Below, piece after piece: positions 27,094 through 61,380 of a DNA stretch of 62,194 nt. Location: positions 1-62,194 of the forward strand of contig JAFTGH010000030.1 in NCBI GenBank assembly GCA_017458005.1, written 5' to 3'. Positions within the stretch are counted from its first letter, which is position 1. Every line of letters starts with the position of its first letter. Below the pieces are notes generated by a model, which did not search any database, had not been told where the DNA came from, and saw only the letters and a program-made list of their open reading frames with translations. The DNA comes from Prevotella sp. (GTDB lineage Bacteria; Bacteroidota; Bacteroidia; Bacteroidales; Bacteroidaceae). A program made the position numbers and the translations under genes.

Positions 27094-27202
27094 ATTAAAT
27101 TAAGTGAAATATAAAAGTAAATTCAGTGAATTTAGTAAGTAAATTCAGTAGGTTTACTTAGTAAATTCAGTGAGATTACTCAGTAAATTCAGTGAATTTA
27201 CT
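27094..27202. repeat. 22-bp dyad array A (four good units, one decayed)
   Basis: Units start at 27116, 27138, 27160 and 27182, exactly 22 bases apart. Each is 21 bp: AGTAAATTC, then AGT, then GAATTTACT (small variations), so each is a 9-3-9 inverted repeat with one base between units. A degenerate copy at 27094-27114 matches at 14 of 21 positions. The array lies 84-170 bases upstream of the HU-like start codon and beyond its -7 box. Confidence 0.95.
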
Positions 27203-27228
27203 AAATAAATGACTTGAGGTGTCCGTAT

Positions 27229-27261
27229 AAAAAACCCTCCACACTTTTAAGATGTGAAGGG
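27229..27261 (-). terminator. Terminator of the TolB-like gene
   Basis: On the minus strand a nine-pair stem with one mismatch (27253-27261 with 27235-27243) is followed by six T residues (27229-27234). It ends transcription 19 bases after the coding region. Confidence 0.8.
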
Positions 27262-27279
27262 AATTTGCTTATAGATTTT

Positions 27280-28269
27280 CTACTCTAGCATCTTGAAACG
27301 CCAAATCTGGAAATTACCATCAGTATTTCCTCGGTCTGAAACAAAATATAGATAATTGTCTTTAGTCCAATAAGGCATTCCATCATATGACTTATTGATA
27401 GTCACTTGAACTAAGTTATTACCATCAACGTCAATGATATAAATATCATAATCTTTCTTATCTTTCTTGGAAGCCTCAAATACAATTCTAGTACCATCGG
27501 GGCTCCAGCGAGGATTAGAAGCGTATCCTTTCTTCGCATCAGTAATTTGCACTTGCTCACTACCGTCAATATTCATTGTCCAAATACTACAACTCTTGGC
27601 ATCAGAAGAATACTTCACATAGGCTATTTGCTTTCCATCTGGAGAGAATACCGGCTGATAGCCATTGCCTAAAAGAGTTGTTTCACCCGTTTTCAGGTTC
27701 TTCAGCCAGATTTCACTGTTCTCTACAATGACAGTGGTTCCTCCTAATCCAAAGAAAGAACCCCAGAAATTAAATTTTTTATAATAGGAATATTGTACCT
27801 TACTATATACCAGCATGGTACCATCTTCATTGAAACTGGGATAATCCTCAAAAGCATTAGAAGATTCTGTAATCTGATTCAATGCCTTTCCCTTGCTATC
27901 AGTCATCATATATATATCAGAGGTGCTACTACCTTCCAATTGACACCGGAAAGCAAGTTTATCCGTTGCAGGACAATAAACAGGAGAATAATTGAAGTTC
28001 TTTCCACTTGTCTTCTGAGTCATTGCTGCAGAGAAAGGATTTTCTTTCTTATAGATATTAAAATATCTCTTATTTTCCCTTGCGGAGAAATAGAGCGCAC
28101 TGCCGTTATCACCTCCAAAGGGATACAAACAAGGCTCCTCATTGTCGGTAACTTGAGTCAGTGCCTGAAGGCTTTCACCTGTTGTTGTAATTGCATACTT
28201 TTTCTTTCCGTAGCCAGATAGTGCTACTACAAAAAGAACTAATGTAAATAATAATTTTTTCATAATCAT
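27280..28269 (-). CDS. Exported TolB-like beta-propeller protein
   Basis: A 329-residue protein with signal peptide MKKLLFTLVLFVVALSGYG. Repeated blade motifs of the TolB/PD40 type are visible: YSPVYCPATDKLAFRC, DYPSFNEDGTMLVYSK, YQPVFSPDGKQIAYVK, SNPRWSPDGTRIVFEA and GMPYWTKDNYLYFVSD. It is a periplasmic or surface propeller, perhaps a binding scaffold. It follows the DUF4384 gene by 32 bases and is probably in the same transcript. Confidence 0.87.
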   Translation of the reverse strand: MIMKKLLFTLVLFVVALSGYGKKKYAITTTGESLQALTQVTDNEEPCLYPFGGDNGSALYFSARENKRYFNIYKKENPFSAAMTQKTSGKNFNYSPVYCPATDKLAFRCQLEGSSTSDIYMMTDSKGKALNQITESSNAFEDYPSFNEDGTMLVYSKVQYSYYKKFNFWGSFFGLGGTTVIVENSEIWLKNLKTGETTLLGNGYQPVFSPDGKQIAYVKYSSDAKSCSIWTMNIDGSEQVQITDAKKGYASNPRWSPDGTRIVFEASKKDKKDYDIYIIDVDGNNLVQVTINKSYDGMPYWTKDNYLYFVSDRGNTDGNFQIWRFKMLE

Positions 28270-28301
28270 AGGGTTTTTTAGTGAATAAATATATCATTTT
28301 T

Positions 28302-29168
28302 CTATTTCTTGACTACAATAGGTATTCGTCGCGGGATCATGTCATGATCATGCTTGCGGCATTTGGCAAGCCATCTCTGGAAATCATCGTATGAGAGTTC
28401 ACGAGGCAAAAGTTCACTCGTCGCATTATCCGCTGCCTTGGCAAACTGATTAGGCGAGAAGACAACATAGATCACATTATGCTCCATGGAACGCTCACAG
28501 GTCATATTATACTCATCAACATAAGGGCGATCCTGCTGTGATGCCTCCTTGATATTAAAGAACAGGTAACGACGATTTGCCTCAATAGGATAGATACCAT
28601 CCATCTGATTGCGATAGGGCAATAGACAGAAAGCCTTCTCACTCGAGTCGACGAGATAAACGGCAAGATAACCACTTACAGGAGAGACAAACGACAAGAA
28701 GAGGTCGTCACCGCTCTTGAAATCATCGTCCTCAAACTTATCCTCAATCCCATTGCGCAAGACATGTGCCTGAAAATCTATTTGAGCCGTGACAATCTCA
28801 CGTGCCTTACCCTTCACCTTACAGGTAATGATAACCATATTCTCCTGAAAGACAGGATTGCTGAACTTAGGCTCCCCGATAGTCTCAATCCATTCTCCCT
28901 TCACCTCACTGCCTCCAATCGTGAAGAAATCTGTCGACGACTCGCTGCCATTGGTATGGATACGGGTCGTATTAGTCTGCTGAACAATAGTACCAAACTC
29001 ATCGGCTATCGCCTGTATTTTGGCACGCTCTAAGGCTGTCCGCCTAATCTCCTCCACCGATACATTCTCAGGGGCATGGTAGGTATATTCTCCCTCCACC
29101 GTCTTCACTTTCTGGGCAAAGGCAGTGAGCGACAGCATCATGAGTATGAAGACTACGGCTTGTCTCAT
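28302..29168 (-). CDS. DUF4384-domain exported protein
   Basis: A 288-residue protein with signal peptide MRQAVVFILMMLSLTAFAQ. The first half (ENVSVEEIRRTALERAKIQAIADEFGTIV) resembles LPP20/flagellar-assembly-like helices; the second half (GDDLFLSFVSPVSGYLAVYLVD, then FCLLPYRNQMDG) is the DUF4384 region. Such proteins are envelope-associated with unknown function in Bacteroidota. It has a strong consensus promoter and precedes the TolB-like gene. Confidence 0.82.
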   Translation of the reverse strand: MRQAVVFILMMLSLTAFAQKVKTVEGEYTYHAPENVSVEEIRRTALERAKIQAIADEFGTIVQQTNTTRIHTNGSESSTDFFTIGGSEVKGEWIETIGEPKFSNPVFQENMVIITCKVKGKAREIVTAQIDFQAHVLRNGIEDKFEDDDFKSGDDLFLSFVSPVSGYLAVYLVDSSEKAFCLLPYRNQMDGIYPIEANRRYLFFNIKEASQQDRPYVDEYNMTCERSMEHNVIYVVFSPNQFAKAADNATSELLPRELSYDDFQRWLAKCRKHDHDMIPRRIPIVVKK

Positions 29169-29196
29169 TCTATAAAATTTTTAGTTTTTGATGCGG

Positions 29197-29228
29197 CAAA
29201 GTTAATAATAAGTGAAGGAAAAACCAAA
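29197..29228 (-). promoter_or_regulatory. Promoter of the DUF4384 gene, core shared with tig
   Basis: On the minus strand TTTG (29225-29228), a 20-base spacer and TAACTTTG (29197-29204). The 23 bases 29207-29229 are identical to 45993-46015 in the tig promoter, so the -33 box and most of the spacer are shared. Confidence 0.85.
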
Positions 29229-29256
29229 TTTCTACACTCATTTTTTATTATTAAAA

Positions 29257-29290
29257 CGAAAAAACCTCTTCCGAGTTTGGGAAGAGGTTT
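29257..29290 (-). terminator. Terminator after tRNA-Val (copy 1)
   Basis: An 11-bp perfect stem (29280-29290 with 29262-29272) with loop of seven bases, followed on the minus strand by a T run. Confidence 0.85.
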
Positions 29291-29296
29291 CCTTGG

Positions 29297-29371
29297 TGGG
29301 CGCTGAGGGATTCGAACCCCCGACCCTCTGCTTGTAAGGCAGATGCTCTAAACCAACTGAGCTAAGCGCCC
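29297..29371 (-). tRNA. tRNA-Val(TAC), copy 1
   Basis: On the minus strand GGGCGCT opens the acceptor stem and the discriminator is A. The anticodon stem TCTGC/GCAGA holds CTTACAA with anticodon TAC. The T arm has GGTTCGAATCC. The 75 bases are identical to the copy at 31353-31427. Confidence 0.97.
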
Positions 29372-29450
29372 TTATTTCTTGTAAGCGGGTGCAAAGGTAA
29401 GGCATTTTTTTCATTCTGCCAAACTTTTGCACCACTTTTTTCAAGATTTC

Positions 29451-29876
29451 TTATAATTTGTACAAATCACTGGCGGCAAGCAGGTCAACTTTCTTCTCTG
29501 CCAGGATGCGCTCGCACGCCTCCAAATCGGTAGGACGGATAATCACATGGGCGACATCGCCATTGGCAAAGGAGTACATATACTCGATGAACACGCCTGC
29601 GTCAGACAGCATCTTGAGCACCTTGGCAAGCGAGCCGCTGGTGTTCGGACAGATAAAGCCGATGACATCAGTAATCTTCACTGCGAAATGGGCAGCCTTC
29701 AGCACTTGGTATGCCTTGTCGGGATCGCTGACGATACAGCGCAGAATACCAAAGTCCGAGTTATCGGCAATACTCATGGCGGAGAGGTTGACACCTGCAG
29801 CACCTAACACATCAGTCACCTCGGTGAGGCGTCCTGACTTGTTCTCCAAGAAAATAGACAATTGTTTTGCTAACAT
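29451..29876 (-). CDS. ACT-domain amino-acid-binding protein
   Basis: A 141-residue protein made of two ACT domains: AKQLSIFLENKSGRLTEVTDVLGAAGVNLSAMSI and, after residue 70, VIGFICPNTSGSLAKVLKMLSDAGVFIEYM. ACT domains bind small effectors, usually amino acids. It follows the phenylacetate-CoA ligase gene by 55 bases on the same strand, a pairing often seen in Bacteroidota and archaea, so it may regulate arylacetate or branched-acid metabolism. Confidence 0.88.
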   Translation of the reverse strand: MLAKQLSIFLENKSGRLTEVTDVLGAAGVNLSAMSIADNSDFGILRCIVSDPDKAYQVLKAAHFAVKITDVIGFICPNTSGSLAKVLKMLSDAGVFIEYMYSFANGDVAHVIIRPTDLEACERILAEKKVDLLAASDLYKL

Positions 29877-29886
29877 ATTATTTCGA

Positions 29887-29935
29887 TTTTAATTTTTAAT
29901 CTATAATATTTAATGTTTAATATTTAATATTTTAG
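29887..29935 (-). repeat. TTTAATATT stutter between paaK and the ACT gene
   Basis: An AT-only tract of related eight- to nine-base words (AATTTTTAATC, ATATTTAATG, TTTAATATTTAATATTTT) starts at the ligase stop codon and fills most of the gap to the ACT gene. Confidence 0.8.
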
Positions 29936-31230
29936 AATTTACGGTTATCGATGACGCGCTTTGCCTTACCTGTAGAACGCTCGATGCCCTTAGGCTCCAC
30001 GAGTTTGATCTTGAAGCCCAAACCAATGACGGAGCGGAGTTCTGCCTCCAGTTTCTTCTGCAAGCCCACCATTGTCGCCATGTCGTCAGTGAAGTATTCC
30101 TCCTTCACCTCTACCTTCAGTTCGCTGGTGTCTGTGTTGTTCACACGGTCGACAGTCAGCAGGAAGTGTGGCTCATACTCTGGCAACGACAGGATGACGG
30201 CCTCAATCTGGGATGGGAAGACATTGACACCACGGATGATGAGCATATCGTCGCAACGACCCAGGATACGGTCCATACGTACCAACGTGCGTCCACATGA
30301 GCACTTCTCATAATGCAGTGCCGTGAGGTCGTGGGTGCGATAGCGCAGGAGCGGCATACCCTCTTTCGTCAGATGGGTAAAGGTCAGTTCTCCCAACTCG
30401 CCCTCAGGCATCGGCTCGCCAGTCTCGGGATTCAGGATCTCTGGATAGAAATAGTCCTCACTGAGGTGGGTGCCATGCTGATACTCGCACTCATAGCCCA
30501 CACCAGGTCCTGCGATCTCACTCAGACCATAGATATCATAGGCCTTGATGCCCAGCGAAGCCTCCAACTTCTGGCGCATCTCCTCTGTCCAAGGCTCTGC
30601 GCCAAAGGCGCCAATCCTCAACTTGAACTCGTCACGCGACCACTCGCTCTCGCCCATCGCCTCTCCCAAGAACATCGCATAAGAGGGGGTACAGCAGAGC
30701 ACAGAGGCTCCAAAGTCATGCATCAGCGTGATCTGCTTCTGCGTATTTCCTGACGACATGGGAATGACACTGGCTCCGATATTCGTGGCACCATCATGGG
30801 CACCCAAGCCACCAGTGAACAGCCCATAGCCGTACGACACCTGGAAGATATCGTCTTTCGTAGCGCCATAGGCGGTAAAGGCACGTGAGATAGACTCCGT
30901 CCACATCGCCAAGTCTTTACGAGTATGCAGCACAACGACAGGTTTTCCCGTCGTACCACTGGATGCGTGGATGCGCACTATCTGGCTCATCGGCACTGCT
31001 GCCAGCCCGAATGGATAGTTATCACGAAGGTCGAGTTTGTTGGTAAACGGCAACTTGACGATATCGTCAATATCCTTGATATCGCCAGGCTCCAGCCCCA
31101 TCTCTTGAAATTTCTTACGATAGAATGGCGTGTTATGGTACACATACTCTGCCATCTTCCTTAATCTGATGCTCTGAATCTCACGCAACTGCTCACGATC
31201 CATGCACTCCACAGTCTCATTCCAAATCAT
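29932..31230 (-). CDS. paaK: Phenylacetate-CoA ligase
   Basis: A 432-residue AMP-forming ligase that activates phenylacetate or a related aryl acid to its CoA ester. The adenylation motifs RIHASSGTTGKPVVV and DIYGLSEIAGPG are present, and the C-terminal domain ends IERSTGKAKRVIDNRKF. In anaerobes it often serves the reverse or reductive metabolism of aromatic amino acids with indolepyruvate:ferredoxin oxidoreductase; that partner is not in the window. Transcription runs into the ACT-domain gene. Confidence 0.93.
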   Translation of the reverse strand: MIWNETVECMDREQLREIQSIRLRKMAEYVYHNTPFYRKKFQEMGLEPGDIKDIDDIVKLPFTNKLDLRDNYPFGLAAVPMSQIVRIHASSGTTGKPVVVLHTRKDLAMWTESISRAFTAYGATKDDIFQVSYGYGLFTGGLGAHDGATNIGASVIPMSSGNTQKQITLMHDFGASVLCCTPSYAMFLGEAMGESEWSRDEFKLRIGAFGAEPWTEEMRQKLEASLGIKAYDIYGLSEIAGPGVGYECEYQHGTHLSEDYFYPEILNPETGEPMPEGELGELTFTHLTKEGMPLLRYRTHDLTALHYEKCSCGRTLVRMDRILGRCDDMLIIRGVNVFPSQIEAVILSLPEYEPHFLLTVDRVNNTDTSELKVEVKEEYFTDDMATMVGLQKKLEAELRSVIGLGFKIKLVEPKGIERSTGKAKRVIDNRKF

Positions 31231-31310
31231 TGTTCTTTATTTTTCTTGTTTCGTTTTAAGTTTGTATAGTTCTGTGTGCTGCAAATTTAGTACATTTTTT
31301 CGAAAACACC

Positions 31311-31346
31311 AAAGAAAAGACTGCAAAACTATTTGTCTTGCAGTCT
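31311..31346 (-). terminator. Terminator after tRNA-Val (copy 2)
   Basis: A 9-bp stem AGACTGCAA (31318-31326) with TTGCAGTCT (31338-31346), T-rich on the minus-strand 3' side. Confidence 0.8.
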
Positions 31347-31352
31347 TCTTCG

Positions 31353-31427
31353 TGGGCGCTGAGGGATTCGAACCCCCGACCCTCTGCTTGTAAGGCAGAT
31401 GCTCTAAACCAACTGAGCTAAGCGCCC
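31353..31427 (-). tRNA. tRNA-Val(TAC), copy 2
   Basis: Identical over 75 bases to the copy at 29297-29371, with anticodon TAC. It sits between the porin terminator and its own terminator. Confidence 0.97.
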
Positions 31428-31433
31428 TCAAGA

Positions 31434-31462
31434 AATCCCGAGCACTAGAGGTACTCGGGATT
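31434..31462 (-). terminator. Probable terminator of the OmpA-family gene
   Basis: Stem AATCCCGAG (31434-31442) with CTCGGGATT (31454-31462), 26 bases after the coding region; the T tract is weak. Confidence 0.65.
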
Positions 31463-31487
31463 ATCATTTATCATGCTAATTCGTGAA

Positions 31488-32657
31488 TTACTTCAACTCA
31501 ACAGTTGCACGACGGTTGTAACTGATAGGAGACAGAGTGTCAACACCACCAGCAGCATTGATCTCGATGTTAGAGCGATCAACACCCATGTTAACGAGAG
31601 CGTCAGCAACAGCCTCAGCACGCTTCTGAGACAGGCTCTGGTTGAGGTTTGCACTACCAGTCTTGCTGTCAGCGTAACCAGTTACGACGATCTTAGCGTT
31701 GTTAGCCTTTGCAGCGTCAGCAACAGCCTGTACGTTCTGCAGATCCTTCTGAGAAGCGATCTTAGCCTTACCCAGGTTGAAGAATACTGACACAGGAGCA
31801 GAAACAATTACCTTCTCAGCGCTCTTAGTGTCAAGTGCGTTGGTAGTAGTTGGGCACTTGTGGTCGCGGATCTGCTTCTGCAGACGAGCGTTCTCAGCGT
31901 TAGCGTCAGCCAACTGAGCGTTCAGAGCGTCGATCTGACCCTGAGAGAGAGCCTTGATAGCCTCTACGTCTGGAGTCTTGTTCCAACCAGTAGTCTTGCC
32001 AATGTTGAAAGTAGCACCTACCTCAACTGCGAACTGGTTTACGCGATGCTTTGGAGAAACACCACCCATGCCGCTCCACTCGCTACCATAACTGTTGTAA
32101 GCGAGTTCGAGGTTCAGAGAAACAACCTTACCCAGACGGAAGGTGTTCAACAGACCTGCGCTATAAACGAGGGTATTAGACTTAGCGTCGAAGTTACGAC
32201 CTACACCAGCACCAGCATAAGGAATGAAGTTCCAAATACGGTTCTCATTGTAGCCACAAATCATATTGCTCAGATTGAACAATACCTGCTCGTTAACGGT
32301 CAAATACTTCTGAACATCGCTGTCAAAAGCCTTACCCAGCCACATGAAGTTACCCTTGGTGCGGAGTCCGATACCTGGAGTAAACCACTTACCAATAGCA
32401 ACAGAGAATCCCAGAGCGGTAGTTACGTTGTGATCATTGTCATTCACACCAGTTCCGAGGGGGAACTTGTAGAATGGATTGGCAAAAATGTTGCTTGTGC
32501 CATTGTAGAAAGCACTGTAATTCACATTTGCCTGAACAAACCAGTTGCTCCAGAAAGAATTAGTTGCAACACTGTACTTCTCTGTAGGTACAGCATCCTG
32601 TGCCATTGAGGCAACAGAAACACTGGCAAAAGCCAGTAACATTAAAAACTTTTTCAT
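31488..32657 (-). CDS. OmpA-family outer-membrane porin
   Basis: A 389-residue protein with signal peptide MKKFLMLLAFASVSVASMA. Residues about 25-230 form an eight-strand-like barrel with alternating aromatics, then a short coiled linker (LNAQLADANAENARLQKQIRDH). The C-terminal 110 residues are a peptidoglycan-binding OmpA domain (VVTGYADSKTGSANLNQSLSQKRAEAV). A single cysteine in the linker (HKCPT) and the codon bias toward frequent codons fit a very abundant outer-membrane protein. It has an excellent promoter with a roughly 55-base leader. Confidence 0.93.
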   Translation of the reverse strand: MKKFLMLLAFASVSVASMAQDAVPTEKYSVATNSFWSNWFVQANVNYSAFYNGTSNIFANPFYKFPLGTGVNDNDHNVTTALGFSVAIGKWFTPGIGLRTKGNFMWLGKAFDSDVQKYLTVNEQVLFNLSNMICGYNENRIWNFIPYAGAGVGRNFDAKSNTLVYSAGLLNTFRLGKVVSLNLELAYNSYGSEWSGMGGVSPKHRVNQFAVEVGATFNIGKTTGWNKTPDVEAIKALSQGQIDALNAQLADANAENARLQKQIRDHKCPTTTNALDTKSAEKVIVSAPVSVFFNLGKAKIASQKDLQNVQAVADAAKANNAKIVVTGYADSKTGSANLNQSLSQKRAEAVADALVNMGVDRSNIEINAAGGVDTLSPISYNRRATVELK

Positions 32658-32717
32658 ACCTATACTAATATTAATGTTAAATGATATTACGCTATTACAC
32701 TTTTATCAATTTGTGTG

Positions 32718-32748
32718 CAAAATTAAACATTTATTTTATATCTGCAAA
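32718..32748 (-). promoter_or_regulatory. Strong promoter of the OmpA-family gene
   Basis: On the minus strand TTTG (32745-32748), 19-base spacer, TAATTTTG (32718-32725). Exact consensus spacing. Confidence 0.85.
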
Positions 32749-32835
32749 CTTTTTTGGGAAAAAATTGCACTTTTTTACGAAAAAACTTGTTTTATATCAC
32801 ATTTTTACGTTAATAAGCCTAACTTTTCCTGCAAA

Positions 32836-34653
32836 TCAGCCTAACAACTGCTCTATTTCCTTTTGGGGCAGAATGCAGAGTATCGCTTTTCCATCAGGGG
32901 TGTAATTCACATTAGAGCAGGCAAACAACTCATTGACGATACTCTCCATCTCCTCATTACTGAGAATCTGTCCCTGAGGGATAGCCGCATGGCGGGCAAG
33001 GCTCAAGGCAAGCGACGAATGGATATCGTGCAAGTTTCCCGCTCCTTTCTCTATGGCATCACTGACCATGTCATGAACCAACTGGACGTAATTGAGTCCT
33101 TCAAGACCAGCGGGAATAGCCTGAATGGCATAACTATACTGTCCGAGGTCGCTCAACTCAAAGCCCATCCCCTGTAACTCTGGTAAGATTTTTTCTAACA
33201 CGACAGCATCAGACGGAGAGAAACGGACAACCTCAGGGAAGAGCATCCGCTGACTATTGACAGCCTGTGCCTCCAACTGCGACAGATAGCGCTCATAGCG
33301 AATACGGACATCAGCCCTGTATTGGTCGATAATCATCAGTCCAGACTTCACGGCGGTCATGATATAGCGCCCCTTATATTGATAATGTACGGGAGACTTC
33401 TCCTCTATCAGCGGCTCCACCTCGGAAGCAGGAGTCTCATCGACTGTGGTGTCGAACACCTCTGTCTCCGTTGGACGGCGACGAGCCAACTGGTCGTAGA
33501 GTTGCTCCCATCCGTTGGCAGACTTCGTCGAGCGCTCGGAGTGCTGCTTGAAGGGGTTATAAGTCGAGTTATAAGAAGGTTGGGGAGGCGCCACCTGCTG
33601 CTCAGGGCTGAACACAGGGATGTCTGGTCGCCCCTCTGTATCAAAGTCTATCTGTGGTATCTCGCAGAACTTCCCAATAGCGTCTTTGACAGCCGCCATC
33701 AGAATCTGCCAAACCGCCTGCTCGTTCTCGAACTTGATCTCCGTCTTGGTGGGATGAATATTCACATCAATATCAGAAGGGGCAACTTCGAAATAGATGA
33801 AATACGGCACCTGCATCCCCACAGGCACCAGACGGTCGAAAGCCTGCATCACTGCCTTATGGAAATAGGCATGCTTCATGAAACGCCCATTGACGAAGAA
33901 GTAGTCATGCGCCCCTTTCTTCCGAGCGGACTCTGGTTTACCCACGAAACCGCTTATCTTGCAGATCGCCGTCTCCACACTCACCTCCAACAAATCCTGG
34001 TTAAAGCGTTTGCCAAAGACATCTGAGATACGCTGACGGAGGGTGCCGTTCTTCAGGTTCATTAACTCCTGCCCGTTGCTATAGAGTGAGAAGGCTATCT
34101 CCGGGTAGACTAGGACGATGCGCTCAAAGGCAGTCAGGATATTATTCAACTCCGTCGCATTCGTCTTCAAGAACTTACGACGTGCCGGCACGTTGAAGAA
34201 GAGGTTCTCCACTTTGAAATTACTACCCTTCGGACAACTGACCAGTTCCTGTTCCTCAACCTTAGAGCCAGAGAGTCGTATGCGAGTCCCCAACTCCTGC
34301 TCCTCCATCCTGGTACGCAACTCGACTTGCGACACGGCGGCAATGGAGGGCAAAGCCTCTCCACGGAATCCCATCGTCGTTAAGGCAAAGAGGTCGTCGG
34401 CCTTGCGAATCTTAGAAGTGGCATGACGCTCAAAGGCAAGGCGGGCATCCGTCTCCGACATGCCCTTCCCGTCGTCTATCACCTGGAGAGAAGTGCGTCC
34501 TGCGTCAACCACGATGACCTGAATGGTACGGGCTCCCGCATCAACGGCATTCTCCACCAACTCTTTAATCACAGAGGCCGGTCGCTGGATGACCTCGCCA
34601 GCGGCGATCTGGTTGGCAACGGAGTCTGGTAGTAGTTGTATCACATCACTCAT
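32836..34653 (-). CDS. mutL: DNA mismatch repair protein MutL
   Basis: A 605-residue GHKL ATPase. [32 protein letters not shown] and [15 protein letters not shown] are the N-terminal ATP motifs; the C-terminal dimerisation domain ends [15 protein letters not shown]. The region that carries the endonuclease motif DQHA(x)2E in many MutL proteins reads [12 protein letters not shown] at residues 443-454, so the histidine is lost and nicking activity is doubtful. It is the last gene of the long minus-strand block, 4 bases after the ostA-like gene. Confidence 0.96.
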
Positions 34654-34657
34654 CCGG

Positions 34658-47134: not shown

Positions 47135-48109
47135 CTATTCTATTGTCCAATCAGACAGTTTCTCCTTCTCGTCAAAAAATAACGTCAAAACTAACGGGTT
47201 CCCTTTTTCATCAAAAACCTTATTCTTATAAACCCATTTTTCTGTTTTTGTAGTTATCCCATTTTTCATGATAATTGAAGTTGACCTAGAGCAGCCGGTC
47301 TGATTACCCATGAAAGACTCTATCATGGCTTTCGTCATCCCTTTCTCAAACCTGCCATTTGCTATTGCCTCACCATATTTCCTCCCAAATTTTGAAACAA
47401 GATAGTTATTGGTAACAATACTATCAGGTATTTCTCTATCAGAGACTTCTTCCATATCATAGAAAGCCTCAAAATAACAATAGATGTTCTTTTTATGGCT
47501 ATTTGATTGGAACACCATCAATAAAGGACTGTATTTATGCACTTTGTGATCATTCCGATTTTCCACCTGAATATCGATACAAGTCCATACAGACCCATCA
47601 TAGATTGTTGCATAATTGCCTGTATCAATATCATAAAAAGTAGATTCTGAACTGAAGGGAGACTGTTTATATACATATTTCTTCCCTACATACAATTGCT
47701 TTATTTTCTCATAATGCCCCTGGACAACAAATTGACTGTTATAAGAGATTCCTGTTATCTCTATTTTCTGCTTTGTCTTTTTATTAATTAGTCTCAGATA
47801 AGGGAGATTATTCTTCGTGACAATCGTTTCTATATTGTAATATTCCCCATATCTACACTTCTTAAAACTGGAACCACAATATAATATCGTTTGTCCTATC
47901 AAATGATGATATGTCATTTTGCCTAAATAATTAGGATTCTCTTGTCCATAATACTTCTCTTCAAAATTAGTAAGACTGTCATATTTCTGGACAGACAAGC
48001 CCTCTGCCTTTGGCTTATCCATTATCTTGATTTGGCTTATAGCCGTTAAGGAACAAGCCAATAGCAACATGGTGAAGACAAGTTTCCTAATGGTTTCCAT
48101 CGTATGCAT
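47135..48109 (-). CDS. Exported protein of unknown function with BamE/SmpA-like C-terminus
   Basis: A 324-residue protein; the hydrophobic segment LVFTMLLLACSLTAIS near residues 10-26 is a signal peptide. The middle is a beta-rich, lysine-rich region I do not recognise. The last 70 residues (RFEKGMTKAMIESFMGN, TEKWVYKNKVFDEKGNPLVLTLFFDEKEKL) resemble the SmpA/OmlA fold of BamE. GC content is clearly lower than the neighbours, as in the adjacent hicAB, suggesting that this segment was acquired. Confidence 0.65.
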   Translation of the reverse strand: MHTMETIRKLVFTMLLLACSLTAISQIKIMDKPKAEGLSVQKYDSLTNFEEKYYGQENPNYLGKMTYHHLIGQTILYCGSSFKKCRYGEYYNIETIVTKNNLPYLRLINKKTKQKIEITGISYNSQFVVQGHYEKIKQLYVGKKYVYKQSPFSSESTFYDIDTGNYATIYDGSVWTCIDIQVENRNDHKVHKYSPLLMVFQSNSHKKNIYCYFEAFYDMEEVSDREIPDSIVTNNYLVSKFGRKYGEAIANGRFEKGMTKAMIESFMGNQTGCSRSTSIIMKNGITTKTEKWVYKNKVFDEKGNPLVLTLFFDEKEKLSDWTIE

Positions 48110-48203: not shown

Positions 48204-48242
48204 TTTTGGGAGGGAAAGATTTGGCTTCGCTTTAACTACGAT

Positions 48243-48402
48243 GCACCCAAAGGGGACGAAGGCACCGCCTAACGAGGTGGGAGGTGCCGCCTAAAGGGGA
48301 TTCAGGTGGCTGCTAACGAGTTTGCACCTACGGGTGAAGATATGTTCACCTATAGGTGCAAATATGTTCAGCCGTAGGCGCACATGTTTTCACCTAAGGC
48401 TG
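48243..48402. repeat. 22-bp array B with dyad units
   Basis: Seven related 22-base units start at 48243, 48265, 48287, 48309, 48331, 48353 and 48375. At the right end the units form clear 12-bp dyads 22 bases apart: CACCTACGGGTG (48325), CACCTATAGGTG (48347), CAGCCGTAGGCG (48369) and CACCTAAGGCTG (48391). Left-hand units carry CCGCCTAACG / CCGCCTAAAG words instead. The array fills the 298-base gap between the exported gene promoter and the HU-HIG stop codon; nothing else is seen there. Confidence 0.9.
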
Positions 48403-48407
48403 AAAAC

Positions 48408-49028
48408 CTATATTCGATAATAGACATACGTGCGTCCCATTTGCTTTCTCCGCAAGAGGGGGCTTTCTCCTCCGCAAAAGTCATCGAGGCAACGACGTGC
48501 GGAGTGGTATCGCAGTCCACTCAATGCCTGAAACTGGCGGGCGGTGGTCATGCCGTTGCAGTTGTCGAGGATGCGGTTGAGGATGCTGAGCATCAGTTCC
48601 TTGTCGTACATCTGACTATTGCCACAGAGGTCTGTCGCCTTGTGGAAGCCACGGATGCGATTGCCCACCTCCAGGAGGAAGTCCTTGTTGGGGGTGAAGG
48701 TGACGGTGTCGAAATAGATGTCGTTTGCCGTAATCTTTTTCGGATCGGTCTCCTCACGGCGCAGTCGGAGCACTGGGGCGAAGGTTCCGATGGGGGTCTC
48801 CACTGTCATACCTTCAGAGAGGTACCACTTGGCAGCCTCCTGAAAGGCGATGAACACACGTTTGAACTCGCCGAGGGGCAGTGCGAGATGGTTATGGCAG
48901 AACTGCTCGATGCCCTCCGTACTGATCTTGTTGCGCTTTCTGGGGCGCACATAGAGCAAGGAGCGACCCTCCGCGTCCTTCTTCGGACTTGGATGAATCT
49001 CATAGGGAATACCTGAACTTCTTGGCAT
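48408..49028 (-). CDS. HU-HIG family DNA-binding protein with C-terminal winged helix
   Basis: A 206-residue protein. The N-terminal 110 residues resemble HU-like folds of Bacteroidota (SLLYVRPRKRNKISTEGIEQFCHNHL, LPLGEFKRVFIAFQEAAKWYLSEG, VETPIGTFAPVLRLR). The C-terminal 70 residues read like a winged helix (MTTARQFQALSGLRYHSARRCLDDFCG). It is likely to bind specific DNA, and the 22-bp dyad array starts 6 bases past its stop. It has its own promoter, divergent from the lipid module. Confidence 0.82.
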   Translation of the reverse strand: MPRSSGIPYEIHPSPKKDAEGRSLLYVRPRKRNKISTEGIEQFCHNHLALPLGEFKRVFIAFQEAAKWYLSEGMTVETPIGTFAPVLRLRREETDPKKITANDIYFDTVTFTPNKDFLLEVGNRIRGFHKATDLCGNSQMYDKELMLSILNRILDNCNGMTTARQFQALSGLRYHSARRCLDDFCGGESPLLRRKQMGRTYVYYRI

Positions 49029-51226: not shown

Positions 51227-51232
51227 AGCAAC

Positions 51233-51267: not shown

Positions 51268-51283
51268 AAAAAAACAAAACAAT

Positions 51284-53073: not shown

Positions 53074-53077
53074 TAAT

Positions 53078-53109: not shown

Positions 53110-53113
53110 TGTT

Positions 53114-53935: not shown

Positions 53936-53943
53936 AACGAGTG

Positions 53944-54013: not shown

Positions 54014-54033
54014 CAGCGAAAAGAGAAAGAAAG

Positions 54034-54786: not shown

Positions 54787-55574
54787 TAGAGGTAAAGAAC
54801 TTATACAAGAGTTTTGACGACAAAGACGTGCTACAGGATATCAACGCCGTCTTTGAGGATGGAAAGACCAATCTGATCATCGGACAGAGTGGTAGCGGTA
54901 AGACGGTATTGATCAAGAACCTTGTTGGACTGCTAGAGCCTACCAGTGGACAGATTCTGTACGACGGACGCGACTTTGTATCTATGTCGAAACAAGAGAA
55001 GATACACATGCGAAGGGAGATGGGCATGATTTTCCAGAGCGCCGCCCTCTTCGACTCCATGACGGTATTGGAGAATGTGATGTTCCCACTGGATATGTTT
55101 TCTACGATGAACCTACGGGAGCGTCAGAAGCGCGCCATGGATTGCCTTGACCGTGTCAATCTGGTAGGAGCAGAGGAGAAATACCCTGGGGAGATATCCG
55201 GCGGTATGCAGAAACGTGTAGCCATCGCCCGCGCCATCGCCCTGAATCCTAAATATCTGTTCTGCGATGAGCCGAACTCTGGTCTGGATCCCAAAACCTC
55301 ATTAGTCATTGACGACCTGCTGCATAGTATCACGCAGGAGTTCAACATGACGACGATTATCAATACGCATGATATGAACTCGGTGACGACAATCGGCGAG
55401 AACATCATTTTCATCTATGAAGGGCATAAGGAATGGCAAGGGGTCTCTGCTGATATTATGGGATCAACGAATAAACGGTTGACAGACTTCATCTTCGCCT
55501 CAGACCTGTTGAAGGAAATGCGTGAGGTCGTCAACGCATCTTCCACTGCCCATCACGAAGCACCATCGGAATAA
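54783..55574 (+). CDS. mlaF: MlaF-family ABC transporter ATPase
   Basis: A 263-residue ATPase with Walker A GQSGSGKTVLIKNL, signature ISGGMQKRVAIARA and Walker B YLFCDEPNSGLDP. The GMIFQSAALFDSMTVLENVMFPL segment is typical of MlaF. It energises MlaE. The last 14 codons overlap the 3' end of the opposite-strand lipoprotein gene by 44 bases. Confidence 0.93.
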   Translation: MIEVKNLYKSFDDKDVLQDINAVFEDGKTNLIIGQSGSGKTVLIKNLVGLLEPTSGQILYDGRDFVSMSKQEKIHMRREMGMIFQSAALFDSMTVLENVMFPLDMFSTMNLRERQKRAMDCLDRVNLVGAEEKYPGEISGGMQKRVAIARAIALNPKYLFCDEPNSGLDPKTSLVIDDLLHSITQEFNMTTIINTHDMNSVTTIGENIIFIYEGHKEWQGVSADIMGSTNKRLTDFIFASDLLKEMREVVNASSTAHHEAPSE

Positions 55575-55929
55575 CAATCTCCTCTTTGACGGAATCCTTG
55601 AAGGTCAGAAGCAGGAACGCCTGCATGATTTGTTGAAGGCTATCGTTCCTCGCATTGGTGAGGGCGACCCCCACAATACCACCATGACTTTTCTCTTGCT
55701 CTTGCATGAACTGCTCATAGGCATGCAGCAACTCTTGACGGTAGCCGCTTGGCAACGAGTCGCTATCCGCCTTCCCTTGTAGAAAAGCCTCATAATCGCC
55801 AGCCAAAAGGTGGTCGTAATACTCCTTTGCCGCTTTGCCTGCCAACTCCTCTGGCGTTGGTTCCTGATGGGAACAACTCTGCCAAAAAACAGACAAAAGA
55901 CAAAAGACAACAGCCCAGACTTTCCTCAT
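55531..55929 (-). CDS. Small lipoprotein with DUF-like helical domain
   Basis: A 132-residue protein starting [22 protein letters not shown], a signal peptide with lipobox QSC. The mature part is helical ([26 protein letters not shown]) ending in two strands ([17 protein letters not shown]), like DUF4878/NTF2-like lumazine-related lipoproteins. It is the last gene of the operon with der, overlapping its end by 4 bases, and converges on mlaF with a 44-base overlap. Confidence 0.75.
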
Positions 55930-57239
55930 TTCTGTCGCACAAATACGTTGATGGGGGTTCCTGTCAATGTCCAGTTCTCACGGAGTTTGTTCTCTAAGAA
56001 ACGCTTATAGGGCTCCTTCACATACTGGGGAAGGTTCGCATAGAACACAAAAGTGGGAATCTGGGTGTCGGGCACCTGACTGACATACTTGATCTTGATA
56101 TACTTACCCTTGATAGAGGGTGGCGGTGTCGCCTCTATCAATGGCAACATCACCTCATTGAGTTTCGAGGTACCTATCTTGATCGTACGATTCAAATAGA
56201 CTTGCTTAGCGGTCTCCAACACTTTGAAGATACGCTGCTTCGTGACAGCGGAGGCAAAGATGATGGGGAAGTCGACAAAAGGAGCCATGCGGTTGCGGAT
56301 GGCATCCTCGAAGGTCTTAATGGCTATCTGTGACTTGTCCTCCACCAAGTCCCACTTGTTCACCACCACAACCAGCGACTTGTTATTCTTCTGTATCAAC
56401 TGGAAGATATTCATATCCTGCGCCTCAATGCCACGGGTAGCGTCAATCATCAGGATGCAGACATCTGAGTTCTCGATGGCACGGATGGAGCGCATCACAC
56501 TATAGAACTCCAAGTCCTCCGTCACCTTGTTCTTACGACGGATACCTGCCGTATCTACCAGATAGAAATCAAAACCGAACTTATCGTATTTCGTGTAGAT
56601 AGAGTCACGGGTAGTTCCCGCGATCTCTGTCACGATGTTACGATCCTCGCCGATAAAGGCGTTGATAATACTCGACTTACCTGCGTTCGGACGACCGACC
56701 ACCGCAAAGCGGGGAGTACCGTCTATCACGTCATCGACCTCATCCGTCTTGAGTTTCGACAGCACATGGTCGAGCAGATCACCTGTACCCGAGCCTGTAG
56801 CGGCACTGACACAGAATGGGTCACCAAGACCGAGTTTATAGAACTCATACTGTCCGTACAGGTCCTTTCCGTCATCTGCCTTGTTGGCGACCAAGACGAC
56901 AGGGAGTTTAGAACGACGCAGAATCTGGGCGACATCCATATCCAAGTCGGTCACACCGTTCTTGATATCTACCAGAAACAGCACTAAGTCTGCCTCCTCT
57001 GTAGCGACTGTCACTTGTTTCCGAATCTCTTCCTCGAAGATGTCATCGCTATTGACGACCCATCCGCCAGTATCCACTACCGAGAACTCACGACCGTTCC
57101 ACTCACACTTGCCATACTGGCGGTCACGAGTGGTACCTGCCTCGTCGCTCACAATGGCACGACGAGAGTTCGTCAATCTATTAAATAAGGTGGACTTGCC
57201 GACATTCGGACGTCCTACTATCGCTACTAAATTTCCCAT
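55926..57239 (-). CDS. der: Ribosome-assembly GTPase Der (EngA)
   Basis: A 437-residue double GTPase. The first domain has [17 protein letters not shown] and NKAD; the second [17 protein letters not shown] and NKWD; a KH-like domain follows ([22 protein letters not shown]). It binds the 50S subunit. It lies 6 bases after era in the same operon. Confidence 0.97.
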
Positions 57240-57245
57240 ATCTTC

Positions 57246-58220
57246 TTATTCCGGATTATAACCAAATGAATCGAGTTCACGCTGACTGGAGCGCCAGTCC
57301 TTATCAACCTTGACAAAGGTCTCTAAATAGATGGGCTTGTCAAAGAATTTCTCCAGTGCCTTACGTGCCTCTGTACTTACCTTCTTCAAGGCAACACCCT
57401 GATGACCGATGATAATACCCTTCTGCGAGTCACGCTCCACATAGATGACAGCATTGATATGGATAACCTTCTCCGTCTCCTTGAAACGCTCCACACGCAC
57501 CTCGACGGCATAAGGTATCTCCTTATCATAATAGAGGAGTATCTTCTCGCGGATAATCTCTGAGACAAAGAAACGGGCAGGCTTGTCTGTCAACTGGTCC
57601 TTATCGAAATAGGCAGGACTCTCGGGCAACAGTTCCTTGATACGCTTCAACAGCATATCCGTGCCAAACTTATTCTTTGCCGAGATAGGCAGTATCTCCG
57701 CATTGGGCAGCAGACCATGCCAACGCTCGACAATGGCTGAAAGCAATTGCTCGGGGGTTCGGGGCTGCGAAGGTACGGGGGTACGAGATATGTCTGATGC
57801 AGAAGTATTCTCGCACCCACGCACCTCCGCACCTTCGTTCCCCCGACCAAGTTCATCTATCTTATTGATGAGCAATATGACAGGAATGGTCATCTTCTGC
57901 ACCTTCTCCAGGAAGTCCATGTTCTTCTCCGGATTCTCCACGACATCTGTCACGTAGAGCAACACGTCCGCATCTTGCAAGGCGGACTCCGAGAAGGCAA
58001 GCATCGACTCCTGCAACTTATAGTTAGGCTTCAGCACGCCTGGCGTGTCGCTGAACACAATCTGCGTATCGTCGGTATTCACAATACCCATGATACGATG
58101 CCGTGTGGTCTGCGCCTTGAACGTCGCAATCGAAATACGCTCACCAACCAATTGGTTCATGAGCGTACTTTTTCCTACATTGGGATTCCCAACGATATTT
58201 ACGAATCCTGCTTTATGCAT
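57246..58220 (-). CDS. era: GTPase Era with an in-frame inserted palindrome
   Basis: About 324 residues from ATG 58220, which overlaps the fabH stop by 8 bases (58232 is an alternative). G1 [13 protein letters not shown]3 DTPG, G4 NKID at residues 119-122 and a C-terminal KH domain (IIIGHQGVALKKVSTEARKAL) are intact. Era matures 16S rRNA. Right after NKID the protein carries about 30 extra residues (GRGNEGAEVRGCENTS and on), encoded by a GC-rich palindrome; Era is usually near 295 residues. Confidence 0.95.
   Translation of the reverse strand: MHKAGFVNIVGNPNVGKSTLMNQLVGERISIATFKAQTTRHRIMGIVNTDDTQIVFSDTPGVLKPNYKLQESMLAFSESALQDADVLLYVTDVVENPEKNMDFLEKVQKMTIPVILLINKIDELGRGNEGAEVRGCENTSASDISRTPVPSQPRTPEQLLSAIVERWHGLLPNAEILPISAKNKFGTDMLLKRIKELLPESPAYFDKDQLTDKPARFFVSEIIREKILLYYDKEIPYAVEVRVERFKETEKVIHINAVIYVERDSQKGIIIGHQGVALKKVSTEARKALEKFFDKPIYLETFVKVDKDWRSSQRELDSFGYNPE
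57753..57844. repeat. 92-bp palindromic insertion inside era
   Basis: Left arm 57753-57787 and right arm 57810-57844 are imperfect inverted repeats (about 26 of 35 matching) around a 22-base loop. Arms are built of GGTGCG, GGTACG, CGGGGG words, different in composition from the flanking gene. Confidence 0.85.
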
Positions 58221-59223
58221 CTTTGTTTCCATCATACGCCCATCGGTAATAACTTGCCCCATGGACGAACCCTGCTCCGAAAGCGGTCATAATGATGTTA
58301 TCACCCTTCCTCAGCAGATGCTCATTCTCCCATAGTGCCAGTGGTATCGTAGCGGCAGAGGTGTTTCCGAAATGCTCGATGTTTACCATCACCTGCTCCA
58401 TGGGCAACTCCAAGCGCTTGGCAACAGCCTCGATGATACGCAAATTAGCCTGATGCGGCACTACCCACTGGATATTGTCCTTGTTCAGACCGTTACGCTC
58501 GGCTATCAAAGCACAGTCGTCACTCATATTCGTCACTGCATAACGGAATACCGTGCGACCTTCCTGATAGAGGTAATGCAAGCGGTGGTCTACTGTGAAA
58601 TGACTGGGAGGAGATACTGATCCACCTGCTTTCAGGTGCAAGAAAGGAAGTCCCTTACCGTCAGCACGGAAATAAGAGTCCATCACACCAATATTCTCTT
58701 CCTCGGTGCCCTCTACCAGAACGGCTGCCGCACCATCACCAAACAAGGGGCAGGTAGCACGGTCTTTGTAGTCGACTACCGACGACATCTTGTCGGCACC
58801 AATCACAATAATCTTCTTGTAACGCCCGCACTGAATCATGGAGGCGGCGACATCAAGCGTATAGAGGAATCCACAGCATGCTGCCCAGAAATCGAATGCG
58901 AAAGCATTCTTCAATCCAAGTTTACCTAATACGATACTTGCCGTAGACGGGAACTTATAATCAGCCGTTGAGGTGGTGACAATGACTGCGTCAATAGTAT
59001 CGGGATCGACACCAGTCTTGTGCAGCAACTGCTTGGCAGCCTTGCGCGCCATATAACTGGTACCCAATCCCTCCTCGGCTAGAATGCGCCGTTCCTTGAT
59101 TCCAACGCGCGTCATAATCCACTCATCATTGGTGTCTACCATGCGCGACAACTCCTCGTTATTGAGGACATAGTCGGGCACGTAGCCACCAATGCCGGTG
59201 ATTATCGCATTGATTTTTCCCAT
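58213..59223 (-). CDS. fabH: 3-oxoacyl-ACP synthase III
   Basis: A 336-residue ketosynthase that starts fatty-acid synthesis by joining acetyl-CoA (or branched acyl-CoA) to malonyl-ACP. The active cysteine is C116 in DFWAACCGFL, the histidine is in VPHQANLRIIEAV and asparagine in NIEHFGNTSAAT. It follows rpmF by 3 bases in the typical yceD-rpmF-fabH order; plsX is absent. Confidence 0.96.
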   Translation of the reverse strand: MGKINAIITGIGGYVPDYVLNNEELSRMVDTNDEWIMTRVGIKERRILAEEGLGTSYMARKAAKQLLHKTGVDPDTIDAVIVTTSTADYKFPSTASIVLGKLGLKNAFAFDFWAACCGFLYTLDVAASMIQCGRYKKIIVIGADKMSSVVDYKDRATCPLFGDGAAAVLVEGTEEENIGVMDSYFRADGKGLPFLHLKAGGSVSPPSHFTVDHRLHYLYQEGRTVFRYAVTNMSDDCALIAERNGLNKDNIQWVVPHQANLRIIEAVAKRLELPMEQVMVNIEHFGNTSAATIPLALWENEHLLRKGDNIIMTAFGAGFVHGASYYRWAYDGNKDA

Positions 59224-59226
59224 GCT

Positions 59227-59415
59227 TTACTCTGCTGCTTCGTCCATTACAATAGCAATCTTACCACGATAGTAGCCACAAGTGGGGCATACGGTATGGT
59301 AAACGTGATAAGCACCGCAGTTAGGACATACTGCCAATGTGGGTGCTACTGCCTTGTCATGAGTACGACGCTTCAGCGTACGGGTCTTTGACTGTCTTCT
59401 TTTAGGATGTGCCAT
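59227..59415 (-). CDS. rpmF: Ribosomal protein L32
   Basis: A 62-residue zinc-ribbon ribosomal protein. MAHPKRRQSKTRTLKRR is the conserved start and CPNCGAYHVYHTVCPTCGYY provides the two CxxC pairs. It sits between the YceD-like gene and fabH. Confidence 0.98.
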   Translation of the reverse strand: MAHPKRRQSKTRTLKRRTHDKAVAPTLAVCPNCGAYHVYHTVCPTCGYYRGKIAIVMDEAAE

Positions 59416-59434
59416 AATTCTATTACTTTAAATG

Positions 59435-59460
59435 TTTTTACTTTTTTACCTTTTTACTCT
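59435..59460 (-). repeat. GGTAAAAAAG stutter between yceD and rpmF
   Basis: On the minus strand the yceD-like stop codon is followed at once by AAAGGTAAAAAAGTAAAAA. The words equal those after the rluB-like stop codon. Confidence 0.85.
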
Positions 59461-59975
59461 TTTAATTTTAAAAGTGCCTCCCACCGCGGGTCTATCTCTT
59501 GAGCCTCCTCTTTGCCTCTCAGGTTGGCACCGCTTAACTCTTGGAGTTTCTGCGTCATCGCACTATTGCATTTTCCAGGTGCATGAACGTGCTTGATGGG
59601 TATGGCTAAAGCAATAAACTCATAGATGAGCCATGATATGTCGAGTATTCCTTCGTTCTCGTCTACTATCACGACATCATCCTCAGTGTTCGTCTCGGCT
59701 CCCAACTTAGCCACCAGACGGTTGTCCGTCTCAATGGGCTGCTCCATGTCGTCAAGACAAAGGTCGCAGGGAACTGTCACTATGCCCTCAGTGTGGAACT
59801 GGAACTCATAAAAGCCGGTTGCCTTGCGTATAGACACCGACACGTGCAATGTTCCGCCATTCACCTCCGAGGTGTCCAAAGCCTTGAAGAAATCATTATC
59901 CAGGTCAAATTCCAGACGTTGCTCGTCGGTCTTCATCCCTTTTAAATCAATCTTAAATGTCTCCAGACTACACAT
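59454..59975 (-). CDS. YceD-like DUF177 protein
   Basis: About 173 residues from ATG 59975; the upstream ATG at 59996 lies within the promoter box and is rejected. DUF177 motifs PCDLCLDDMEQPIE and the acidic EDDVVIVDENEGILDISWLIYEFI are present. YceD-type proteins are linked to 23S rRNA and L32 expression. The gene leads the operon and a GGTAAAAAAG stutter follows the stop. Confidence 0.9.
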   Translation of the reverse strand: MCSLETFKIDLKGMKTDEQRLEFDLDNDFFKALDTSEVNGGTLHVSVSIRKATGFYEFQFHTEGIVTVPCDLCLDDMEQPIETDNRLVAKLGAETNTEDDVVIVDENEGILDISWLIYEFIALAIPIKHVHAPGKCNSAMTQKLQELSGANLRGKEEAQEIDPRWEALLKLKE

Positions 59976-59993
59976 AACTACACTTTTGGCTTG

Positions 59994-60023
59994 CAAAGTT
60001 ACAAAATAATTACGAATTACAAA
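59994..60023 (-). promoter_or_regulatory. Promoter of the yceD-rpmF-fabH-era-der operon
   Basis: On the minus strand TTTG (60020-60023), an 18-base spacer and TAACTTTG (59994-60001), 19 bases before the ATG. Confidence 0.75.
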
Positions 60024-60112
60024 TTGTGAATTATGTTTTTTTTGCTTTTCCTTTGAAAATCAGCCACTAACAAACACGTAGATTGCACATTGACGAGGGG
60101 AAGTGTGCAAAA

Positions 60113-61228
60113 TCACAGCGGCATCTCGATACGGAACGTGGTACCCTTGCCAATCTCTGACGACTTCACAAAGATGTGTCCTTTATGATATTCCTCCACA
60201 ATGCGCTTGGCAAGCGACAAGCCAAGTCCCCACCCTCGCTTCTTGGTCGTGAAACCTGGTGTAAACACATTATTGATGTCCTTCTTCTTGATACCCTTGC
60301 CCGTGTCCTGCACCTCTATGACCACACGACTGTCCTCCTTCCATAGAGACAAGGTGATAGAGCCTTCCCCCTCCATGGCATCCACCGCGTTCTTGCAGAG
60401 ATTCTCGATCACCCACTCAAACAGCGAGGCATTCATCTTGACAATGACATCCTCGTCCGGCATACGACTTACTATCTGCACCTTCTGCGAGGTACGACGC
60501 CCCATGTACTCTATGACATGTTGCAAGACTTCATTCATGGAGGCATCAACAGGCTCTGGCACTGACCCGATCTTGGAGAAACGCTCGGCAATACGCTCCA
60601 ACCGTTTCACGTCCTTATCCATCTCAGGCAGGAGTTCATCGTCGGGATAGTTCTCCTTCAACATCTCCGTCCATGCCATCAAACTGGAGATAGGAGTCCC
60701 TAACTGGTGGGCGGTCTCCTTCGACAAGCCTACCCATACCTTGTTCTGCTCGGCACGCTTGGACGACAGCAGGGCGAAGATGGCGACAACGACAAAGATA
60801 AGGACAATGCCTAACTGCACATAGGGCCATGCCGCCAACCGTTTCAACATCACTGAGTCGTCGTAGCACACCAACTGCGAGCCCACCCGTATGGTGTCAC
60901 CCGCCCCAATCATGCGCTTGGCATATTCGTTCACGTGCAGAGAGTCTTTGATGTTGCGGAAATCGTAGATACTGCCGTCCTCGTTGACCACAATAACGGG
61001 AATGGTGTTATTGCCTTGCAAGACACTCAGCACTAATGGGATATCCGTATTCTCGTCCGCCTCATTCAAAGAGTGCAAAGCCTGCGCCCAGATCTCCATC
61101 TTGCTTCGCTCCTCATTGGACAGGTCACGAACCAAGAAGTGGGAAACCAACAAAGAGGCGACGGCAATCACGATTGCTGCCACCACCAGAATAATCTTGA
61201 TCTGTCGGATTCTGTCAGTCCACTGCAT
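60113..61228 (-). CDS. Membrane sensor histidine kinase
   Basis: A 371-residue kinase with two membrane helices (residues about 11-30 and 138-160) and a periplasmic sensor of about 105 residues between them. The H box is KETAHQLGTPISSLMAW; the N box ENLCKNAVDAM, G1 DTGKGIKK and G2 GWGLGLSLAKRI follow. No HAMP region is evident and no response regulator lies beside it, so the partner is elsewhere. A 22-bp dyad array lies upstream. Confidence 0.9.
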   Translation of the reverse strand: MQWTDRIRQIKIILVVAAIVIAVASLLVSHFLVRDLSNEERSKMEIWAQALHSLNEADENTDIPLVLSVLQGNNTIPVIVVNEDGSIYDFRNIKDSLHVNEYAKRMIGAGDTIRVGSQLVCYDDSVMLKRLAAWPYVQLGIVLIFVVVAIFALLSSKRAEQNKVWVGLSKETAHQLGTPISSLMAWTEMLKENYPDDELLPEMDKDVKRLERIAERFSKIGSVPEPVDASMNEVLQHVIEYMGRRTSQKVQIVSRMPDEDVIVKMNASLFEWVIENLCKNAVDAMEGEGSITLSLWKEDSRVVIEVQDTGKGIKKKDINNVFTPGFTTKKRGWGLGLSLAKRIVEEYHKGHIFVKSSEIGKGTTFRIEMPL

Positions 61229-61299
61229 ACCTTATTATAACGTACCAGTAGCGGGATTATTGCTTTTGCCGTAACACCTTGAAAGTGTGTGCTTTGTTA

Positions 61300-61380
61300 T
61301 TCCCACGCTGGGAATCCATCTTTCCCACGTTGGGAATCTAACTTTCCCACGTTGGGAATCCATCTTTCCCACGTTGGGAA
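61300..61380. repeat. 22-bp dyad array C (four units)
   Basis: TTCCCACG(C/T)TGGGAA occurs at 61300, 61322, 61344 and 61366, each 22 bases apart. Every unit is a 6-3-6 inverted repeat, TTCCCA and TGGGAA around CGT or CGC, with seven-base spacers TCCATCT, TCTAACT, TCCATCT. It lies 72-152 bases upstream of the kinase start. Confidence 0.97.

Follow-up and report, generated by a model that had tools for sequence, protein, structure and literature searches.

Dispersed arrays of short dyads at a 22-bp pitch in Prevotella as predicted platforms for phased protein binding

The OR and OL regions of lambdoid phages hold about three dyad operators that lie 20–24 bp apart and are bound by cooperating dimers, with immunity words that differ between phages. 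Short helix-phased repeats at a regulatory region are also found in plasmid iterons and in the centromere parC of plasmid R1, where the repeat measures 11 bp. Here, we analyzed tandem arrays of short repeats in a stretch of 62,194 nt from Prevotella sp. (contig JAFTGH010000030.1; hereafter the window), for which a preliminary description had reported three arrays, A, B, and C, with unrelated sequences and a common period of 22 bp. We refer to the genome of origin as G000, and use G, C, and L numbers as handles for genomes, contigs, and loci. Further systems of interest are the stoperators of Cluster A mycobacteriophages, i.e., asymmetric sites of the phage repressor in the phage genome (PMC9283540), RPE, which are dispersed palindromes lying in frame inside genes (PMC3733652), and prokaryotic satellites, i.e., tandem repeat families scattered in the genome (PMC6749651).

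The arrays resemble OR and OL in that several dyads follow each other at a near-equal pitch with words differing by lineage, and presumably in the use of dimers; however, they are dispersed over the chromosome, including the 3' ends and the interior of genes. Stoperators offer a parallel of one repressor with many genome-spread sites, but the sites described here are symmetric, arranged in arrays, and located in bacterial chromosomes. Dispersed palindromes are shared with RPE and REP/BIME, and in-frame gene copies with RPE; unlike both, the arrays combine a fixed 22-bp tandem pitch, 15-bp palindromes, and arms conserved at synonymous sites. In contrast to prokaryotic satellites, they are short and diverged, and the words "Prevotella" and "Bacteroid-" are absent from the text consulted on them (PMC6749651). 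No description of these arrays was recognized among the papers listed by searches of open-licence literature. We suggest that they may work like a multi-operator array, and do not claim membership in a known family. Their pitch is fixed, their arms are conserved with free cores and spacers, and they are dispersed, occupy orthologous positions, and differ in word between lineages. Judged from sequence, they probably represent phased dimer-binding platforms on double-stranded DNA with lineage-specific words.

The three arrays of the window are as follows:

27088..27210 (clean part 27116-27202), no strand: array A, each unit (22 bp) consisting of AAATTCAnTGAATTT (15 bp) and 7 further bp
48243..48402, no strand: array B, weaker, a composite of two words
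61300..61380, no strand: array C, four copies of TTCCCA-N3-TGGGAA separated by 7-bp spacers; belongs to a dispersed family (family C)

All three were confirmed, with A and C being clean and B weaker. Lag-22 identity amounted to 0.76 for A (27094-27215), 0.54 for B (48225-48410), and 0.70 for C (61290-61395), which exceeds the respective maxima among 2000 shuffles (0.54, 0.38, and 0.48); the best other window stretch of equal length reached 0.50, 0.41, and 0.54. In a lag scan of the window, 22 was the strongest lag in each array. Tandem Repeats Finder (TRF) revealed clear 22-bp arrays for A (score 130) and C (score 143), and two to three copies for B (scores 64 and 61), which comprises CACCTnnnGGTG-type units in 48325-48402 and a different word in 48243-48324. 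Dyad symmetry, which had been ascribed to the units of all three, was strong for A (p = 0.001) and clear for C (p = 0.021) in an arm-based test. It is ambiguous for B, because only 48325-48392 passed (p < 0.05), while 48325-48402 (p = 0.47) and the half 48243-48324 (0.71) failed. Three period-22 arrays in 62 kb alone are not surprising, since blind stretches of G000 hold four per 160 kb; the finding is the genome-wide class.

The family of array C is defined by 6-bp arms (TTCCCA / TGGGAA), an N3 core, and a 7-bp spacer with the AT-rich consensus YRWWWYR. Across nine genomes, 106 of 116 neighboring palindrome pairs were exactly 22 bp apart (15–45 permitted), i.e., in the constant helical phase expected of multi-operator regions, as 11 bp correspond to one helical turn and 22 bp to two. 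With spacers of 0–30 permitted, the forward pairs of G000 numbered 32, of which 28 were spaced by 22 bp, one by 45, and three by 21, each of the latter at the end of an array. Pairs were present in 4 of 39 searched genomes of relatives (28 pairs, all at 22), and four genomes reached via named loci added 56 pairs (50 at 22, two at 23, and four at 44). A contig scan returned at least 117 family-C stretches among the matches listed, whose titles named Prevotella, Prevotellaceae, Xylanibacter, Bacteroidales, or Bacteroidaceae with one exception, a Clostridiales metagenome-assembled genome. Roughly 6–16 places per genome were occupied in G000 and the genomes reached via named loci. In 135 arrays, orthologous ones included, three units were most common (77 arrays), followed by two (36), four (15), five (6), and six (1). 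The 15-bp palindromes with 7-bp spacers do not correspond to CRISPR arrays (24–48-bp repeats and unique spacers of about the same length) or to REP/BIME (20–40-bp palindromes with a GTAG or CGTC end tag); family C has no fixed tag, because the 7-bp spacer is free within its consensus. Viral contigs yielded five family-C stretches in 2.9 million, so a phage-borne origin has little support.

A lag scan for periods 8–60 covered the window and 20 further G000 stretches, 434 kb in total; 12 of the 20 were picked for holding family C or A, and eight were blind. Intergenic arrays in the window and blind stretches (222 kb) comprised seven with period 22, three of which are A, B, and C themselves, seven with period 8, and at most two with any other period. 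The blind stretches alone (160 kb) contained four arrays of period 22, three of period 8, and two of period 14. Furthermore, period 22 accounted for 13 of the 25 intergenic arrays detected in 420 kb of G016, a one-contig genome of the same genus without a family-C pair, with another word. In line with the preliminary description, 22 was the most frequent among intergenic periods longer than 8 bp in the sampled stretches of both genomes. Functionless slippage products of coincidentally equal length, against which three arrays in one window alone would be weak evidence, are disfavored and scarcely credible, as 22 leads in two genomes and five rounds of block shuffling of the 434 kb gave five arrays, none with period 22. 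The shared period extends to some relatives: 100 kb of G003 held two arrays at 22, one at 21, and three at 23, and 100 kb each of G004 and G009 held none at 22. Other families of the order were sampled with four genomes and 601 kb (60 + 200 kb each of G025 and G031, 60 kb of G029, 21 kb of G035), in which no period-22 array was detected; G025 had one of period 23. Long period-52 arrays were seen in G031 (L264:14595-15129 and L267:4736-5400).

Dyads are enriched at periods 21–23, but are not universal. The arm-based test, used instead of an earlier majority-consensus test that recovered 44 of 110 family-C arrays, was positive (p < 0.05) for 102/120 family-C arrays and 18/83 other arrays of period 21–23, one of which (in L127) is itself family-C-like. 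The corresponding numbers were 5/12 at periods 41–46, 0/45 at 11–12, and 1/44 at the remaining periods. G016 also contains period-41 arrays, about four helical turns, with palindromic units whose palindrome varies by block (L241:2765-3433 and L245:9-609).

Some family-C arrays are found within conserved genes. Among nine in-gene hosts of family C searched with Pfam, we identified GH106, an acyltransferase, RsmF, an ABC-F-type protein, GH92, CobB/CbiA, and a THUMP-like protein. The arrays of RsmF, GH106, and the acyltransferase are in frame, sit in linkers, and, as known for RPE, occur in genes whose homologues lack them. In RsmF of G000 and G007, the array lies between the methyltransferase and PUA domains, and 19 other aligned homologues are without it. 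The GH106 array is present in G000, L033, and L075 and missing from six other homologues, some of them paralogues. The acyltransferase array was found in G000, G013, and five named loci, with 13 other homologues lacking it; a second G013 piece stops short of the array site. This array takes the place of a loop, and a clean insertion of one fixed-length element may or may not underlie it. In L061 (2369-3490), a second, long perfect hairpin interrupts the acyltransferase array and the frame stays open; the L039 array has a fragmented third unit. At fourfold sites of six acyltransferase genes, arms differed in 5 of 79 pairwise comparisons and other positions in 964 of 1696, with non-independent comparisons and arm sites counted only where the arm was recognizable. 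Because the arms hardly vary at fourfold sites while cores and spacers drift, we read their constancy at synonymous sites as a sign of selection on the DNA. Likewise, the arms of all three units were kept in the orthologous intergenic arrays L047, L081, L136, and L166, with varying cores and spacers. Both checks that the preliminary description had named, on the frequency of period 22 and on preservation in relatives, turned out in its favor.

Several of these features would also be expected of selfish or passively copied palindromic repeats, i.e., small REP- or RPE-like satellites that grow by slippage and persist at harmless sites without host function. Dispersal, in-gene copies in length-variable linkers, the avoidance of upstream regions, and decay of the GH106 array in G007 fit such repeats. 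The same applies to the similar cores within an array and to the 5-unit arrays C13, C58, and C63, which share an identical 21-bp end unit as if copied whole. However, copying would leave the fixation of arms at synonymous sites next to drifting spacers unaccounted for, as well as the single pitch in unrelated words and different species, and we regard it as unlikely.

The preliminary description had placed each array upstream of a minus-strand gene, and the distances it gave were reproduced: 84 bp for A (start at 27032), 134 bp for B (start at 48109, although our own gene caller favors 48022), and 72 bp for C (start at 61228), the last belonging to the following gene:

60113..61228, minus strand: histidine kinase gene with PF02518 and PF00512 matches

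As a rule, upstream placement did not hold for family C. According to gene calls from our own script, the 135 arrays fell into tandem gaps (47), convergent (29) and divergent (14) regions, called genes (19), and contig edges (26), and 38 of the 47 tandem-gap arrays were closer to the 3' end of the upstream gene. A promoter-operator role for all arrays was rejected for family C on these grounds; a likely promoter position is occupied by array A and by a further word on contig C58 described below. The places that family C occupies, near the 3' ends of genes or within them, would suit a role in chromosome structure or in blocking transcription better than promoter control. The 3' bias, together with a unit that could fold into a 6-bp stem with a 3-nt loop, would also agree with RNA hairpins, each palindrome acting as a transcript stem-loop (terminator or stabilizer of the mRNA 3' end). 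We consider this highly improbable, as there is no obvious RNA reason for a strict 22-nt pitch, the orthologous sets shown have arms that stay the same instead of co-varying, word A has a one-base centre, and some arrays lie within reading frames.

Under the binding-platform reading, a family-C unit would be the dyad site of one protein dimer, and the 22-bp repeat would place successive dimers, mostly three in a row, on one helix face two turns apart, where cooperating dimers could stack. The dimeric protein, its cooperativity, and stacking on the same face are what we infer from the geometry. A protein contacting the same helix face every two turns had been suggested previously; family C is conserved as such contacts would demand, and the binding itself is predicted from sequence. 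The coexistence of many words with one period would be explained by a protein family whose members share a single oligomer geometry but have diverged in specificity.

Candidates for such a family are HU-HIG proteins, two of which are encoded next to arrays A and B:

26604..27032, minus strand: HU-HIG DNA-binding protein, 142 aa (PF18291 E = 6e-24; TIGR01201 above cut-off), candidate reader of A
48408..49028, minus strand: HU-HIG protein, 206 aa (PF18291 E = 1.1e-15), 3' end 6 bp from array B
27054..27061, minus strand: octamer TATCTTTG, similar to the -7 box of Bacteroidetes (consensus TAnnTTTG), in the interval separating array A from the HU-HIG start

The reported proximity to HU-type genes was thus correct for both arrays, with A upstream of its gene and B just past the 3' end. 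Word A recurs at spacing 22 in C28:27549-27631, L296, L297, and L034; 2 of 60 genomes of the genus contain a perfect word-A pair, and array A of the window itself has no perfect neighboring pair. In G052 (L296), the word-A array ends 48 bp ahead of a HU-HIG start, again with TATCTTTG in between, and the encoded protein is the closest relative of the window's (62% over 141 aa, reciprocal best among those compared). Since word A occupies the probable promoter of a HU-HIG gene in two species, the HU-HIG protein at A, which would act on its own gene, is the most likely candidate for the reader of this word. A HU-HIG paralogue on C58 of G000 (47% identity) carries TATCTTTG ahead of the gene and another word, GCAATCTAATCTAAATTGC, 90 bp upstream (C58:41344), which recurs at C5:16620, six bases past the end of a reading frame. 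At L333:1061-1438 in G003, three to four different period-22 arrays lie consecutively upstream of one HU-HIG gene. A single-sequence AlphaFold model of the window's protein had a mean pLDDT of 33.6 and was set aside.

Arrays are enriched near HU-type genes. Of the 30 best HU-type loci, 28 were scored; one overlapping locus was excluded, and the gene next to B had escaped the profile. Arrays of period 21–23 or 43–45 lay within 400 bp of HU-type genes in 4/6 (G000), 5/8 (G003), 2/6 (G016), and 1/8 (G020) cases, compared to 5/114, 12/61, and 23/302 control genes in the first three genomes (Fisher p = 0.0002, 0.018, and 0.078); pooled, these three gave 11/20 vs. 40/477 (p = 3.8e-7). Counting upstream arrays only, the HU-type values were 3/6, 4/8, and 1/6, and those of control genes with an upstream gap of ≥ 200 bp were 2/24, 4/23, and 5/81. 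PF18291 matched 8 proteins in G000, 30 in G003, 7 in G016, and 14 in G020.

A number of observations weigh against binding platforms of this kind, or against HU-HIG as their readers. Sixty-five of the 83 other period 21–23 arrays have no detectable dyad, and in the first 80 named family-C loci, with family C excluded, period 11 (n = 30) exceeds period 22 (n = 13), contrary to a simple period-22 rule. The GH106 array of G007 is decayed, and L071 lacks a fourth unit that is present in L031 and L132. Named loci were found via a perfect pair, which favors intact arms, and G013 was also a pattern match. No HU-HIG gene lies close to word A at C28 (G000), L297 (G055), and L034. The HU enrichment is uneven (p = 0.08 in G016; 1/8 without a control in G020), and, as 9 of the 14 control genomes likewise contain PF18291 matches, short ones might represent ordinary HU. 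The profile that missed the gene beside B detected no HU-HIG gene in the 117 named family-C loci; the idea of family C as a marker of HU-HIG genes was thus not borne out, and the link proposed earlier stands for A in two species, the second word at C58:41344, and the overall enrichment, not as a rule. That chromosome-wide, sequence-specific nucleoprotein arrays of 22-bp pitch, intergenic and coding, with lineage-switching words, are read in a genus of Bacteroidales by diversified HU-HIG paralogues, which would have evolved into word-specific phased binders, or by a family of equal geometry appears to us a tentative extension, with the odds against it.

The most recurrent neighbor of family C is a VapE-like helicase (PF05272; 15 of 135 loci, five members of the cluster checked by Pfam); in the 14 loci listed, the array lies on the side of the gene's start. 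In L048, L083, L084, and L092, VapE-like genes have inverted repeats built from 11-bp words (e.g., ACCTAAC) on either side, as though these marked the limits of the gene. The arrays could accordingly be iteron-like origins or ends of VapE-helicase elements, with solitary arrays as remnants. We judge this improbable, as 120 of the 135 loci are outside the VapE-like cluster, the flanking words are 11-bp ones and not 22-bp dyads, and A and the C58 word adjoin HU-HIG genes instead. An adjacent replication initiator gene, as expected for iterons, was not a feature of family C beyond these 15 loci; unlike iterons and parC, it consists of dyad arrays in the chromosome, most of which have no replication gene next to them. 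The arrays of 11-bp words at VapE resemble plasmid iterons and R1 parC, and the 11-bp words suggest a parallel system. A short 11-bp repeat, ATGACAACCTT, also adjoins array C (window 61433-61462). Composite intergenic structures (L038:6208-6620, L054:2743-3072, L078:2936-3315, and L103:1-310) combine an 11-bp direct array, a period-21 AATAAGG..CCTTATT dyad array, a family-C array, and, opposite, the 11-bp word of the direct array in inverted orientation, with varying order of the parts and words that differ by locus.

If the arrays are indeed binding platforms, rumen-type Prevotella would possess an unrecognized class of DNA-binding sites that is constant even in coding regions, and these sites would shape protein linkers as well as regulation. 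The numerous HU-HIG proteins, with their 8 (G000) and 30 (G003) PF18291 matches, would gain concrete, testable DNA targets, and the natural series of words on one geometry would be useful for studying how DNA-binding specificity changes.

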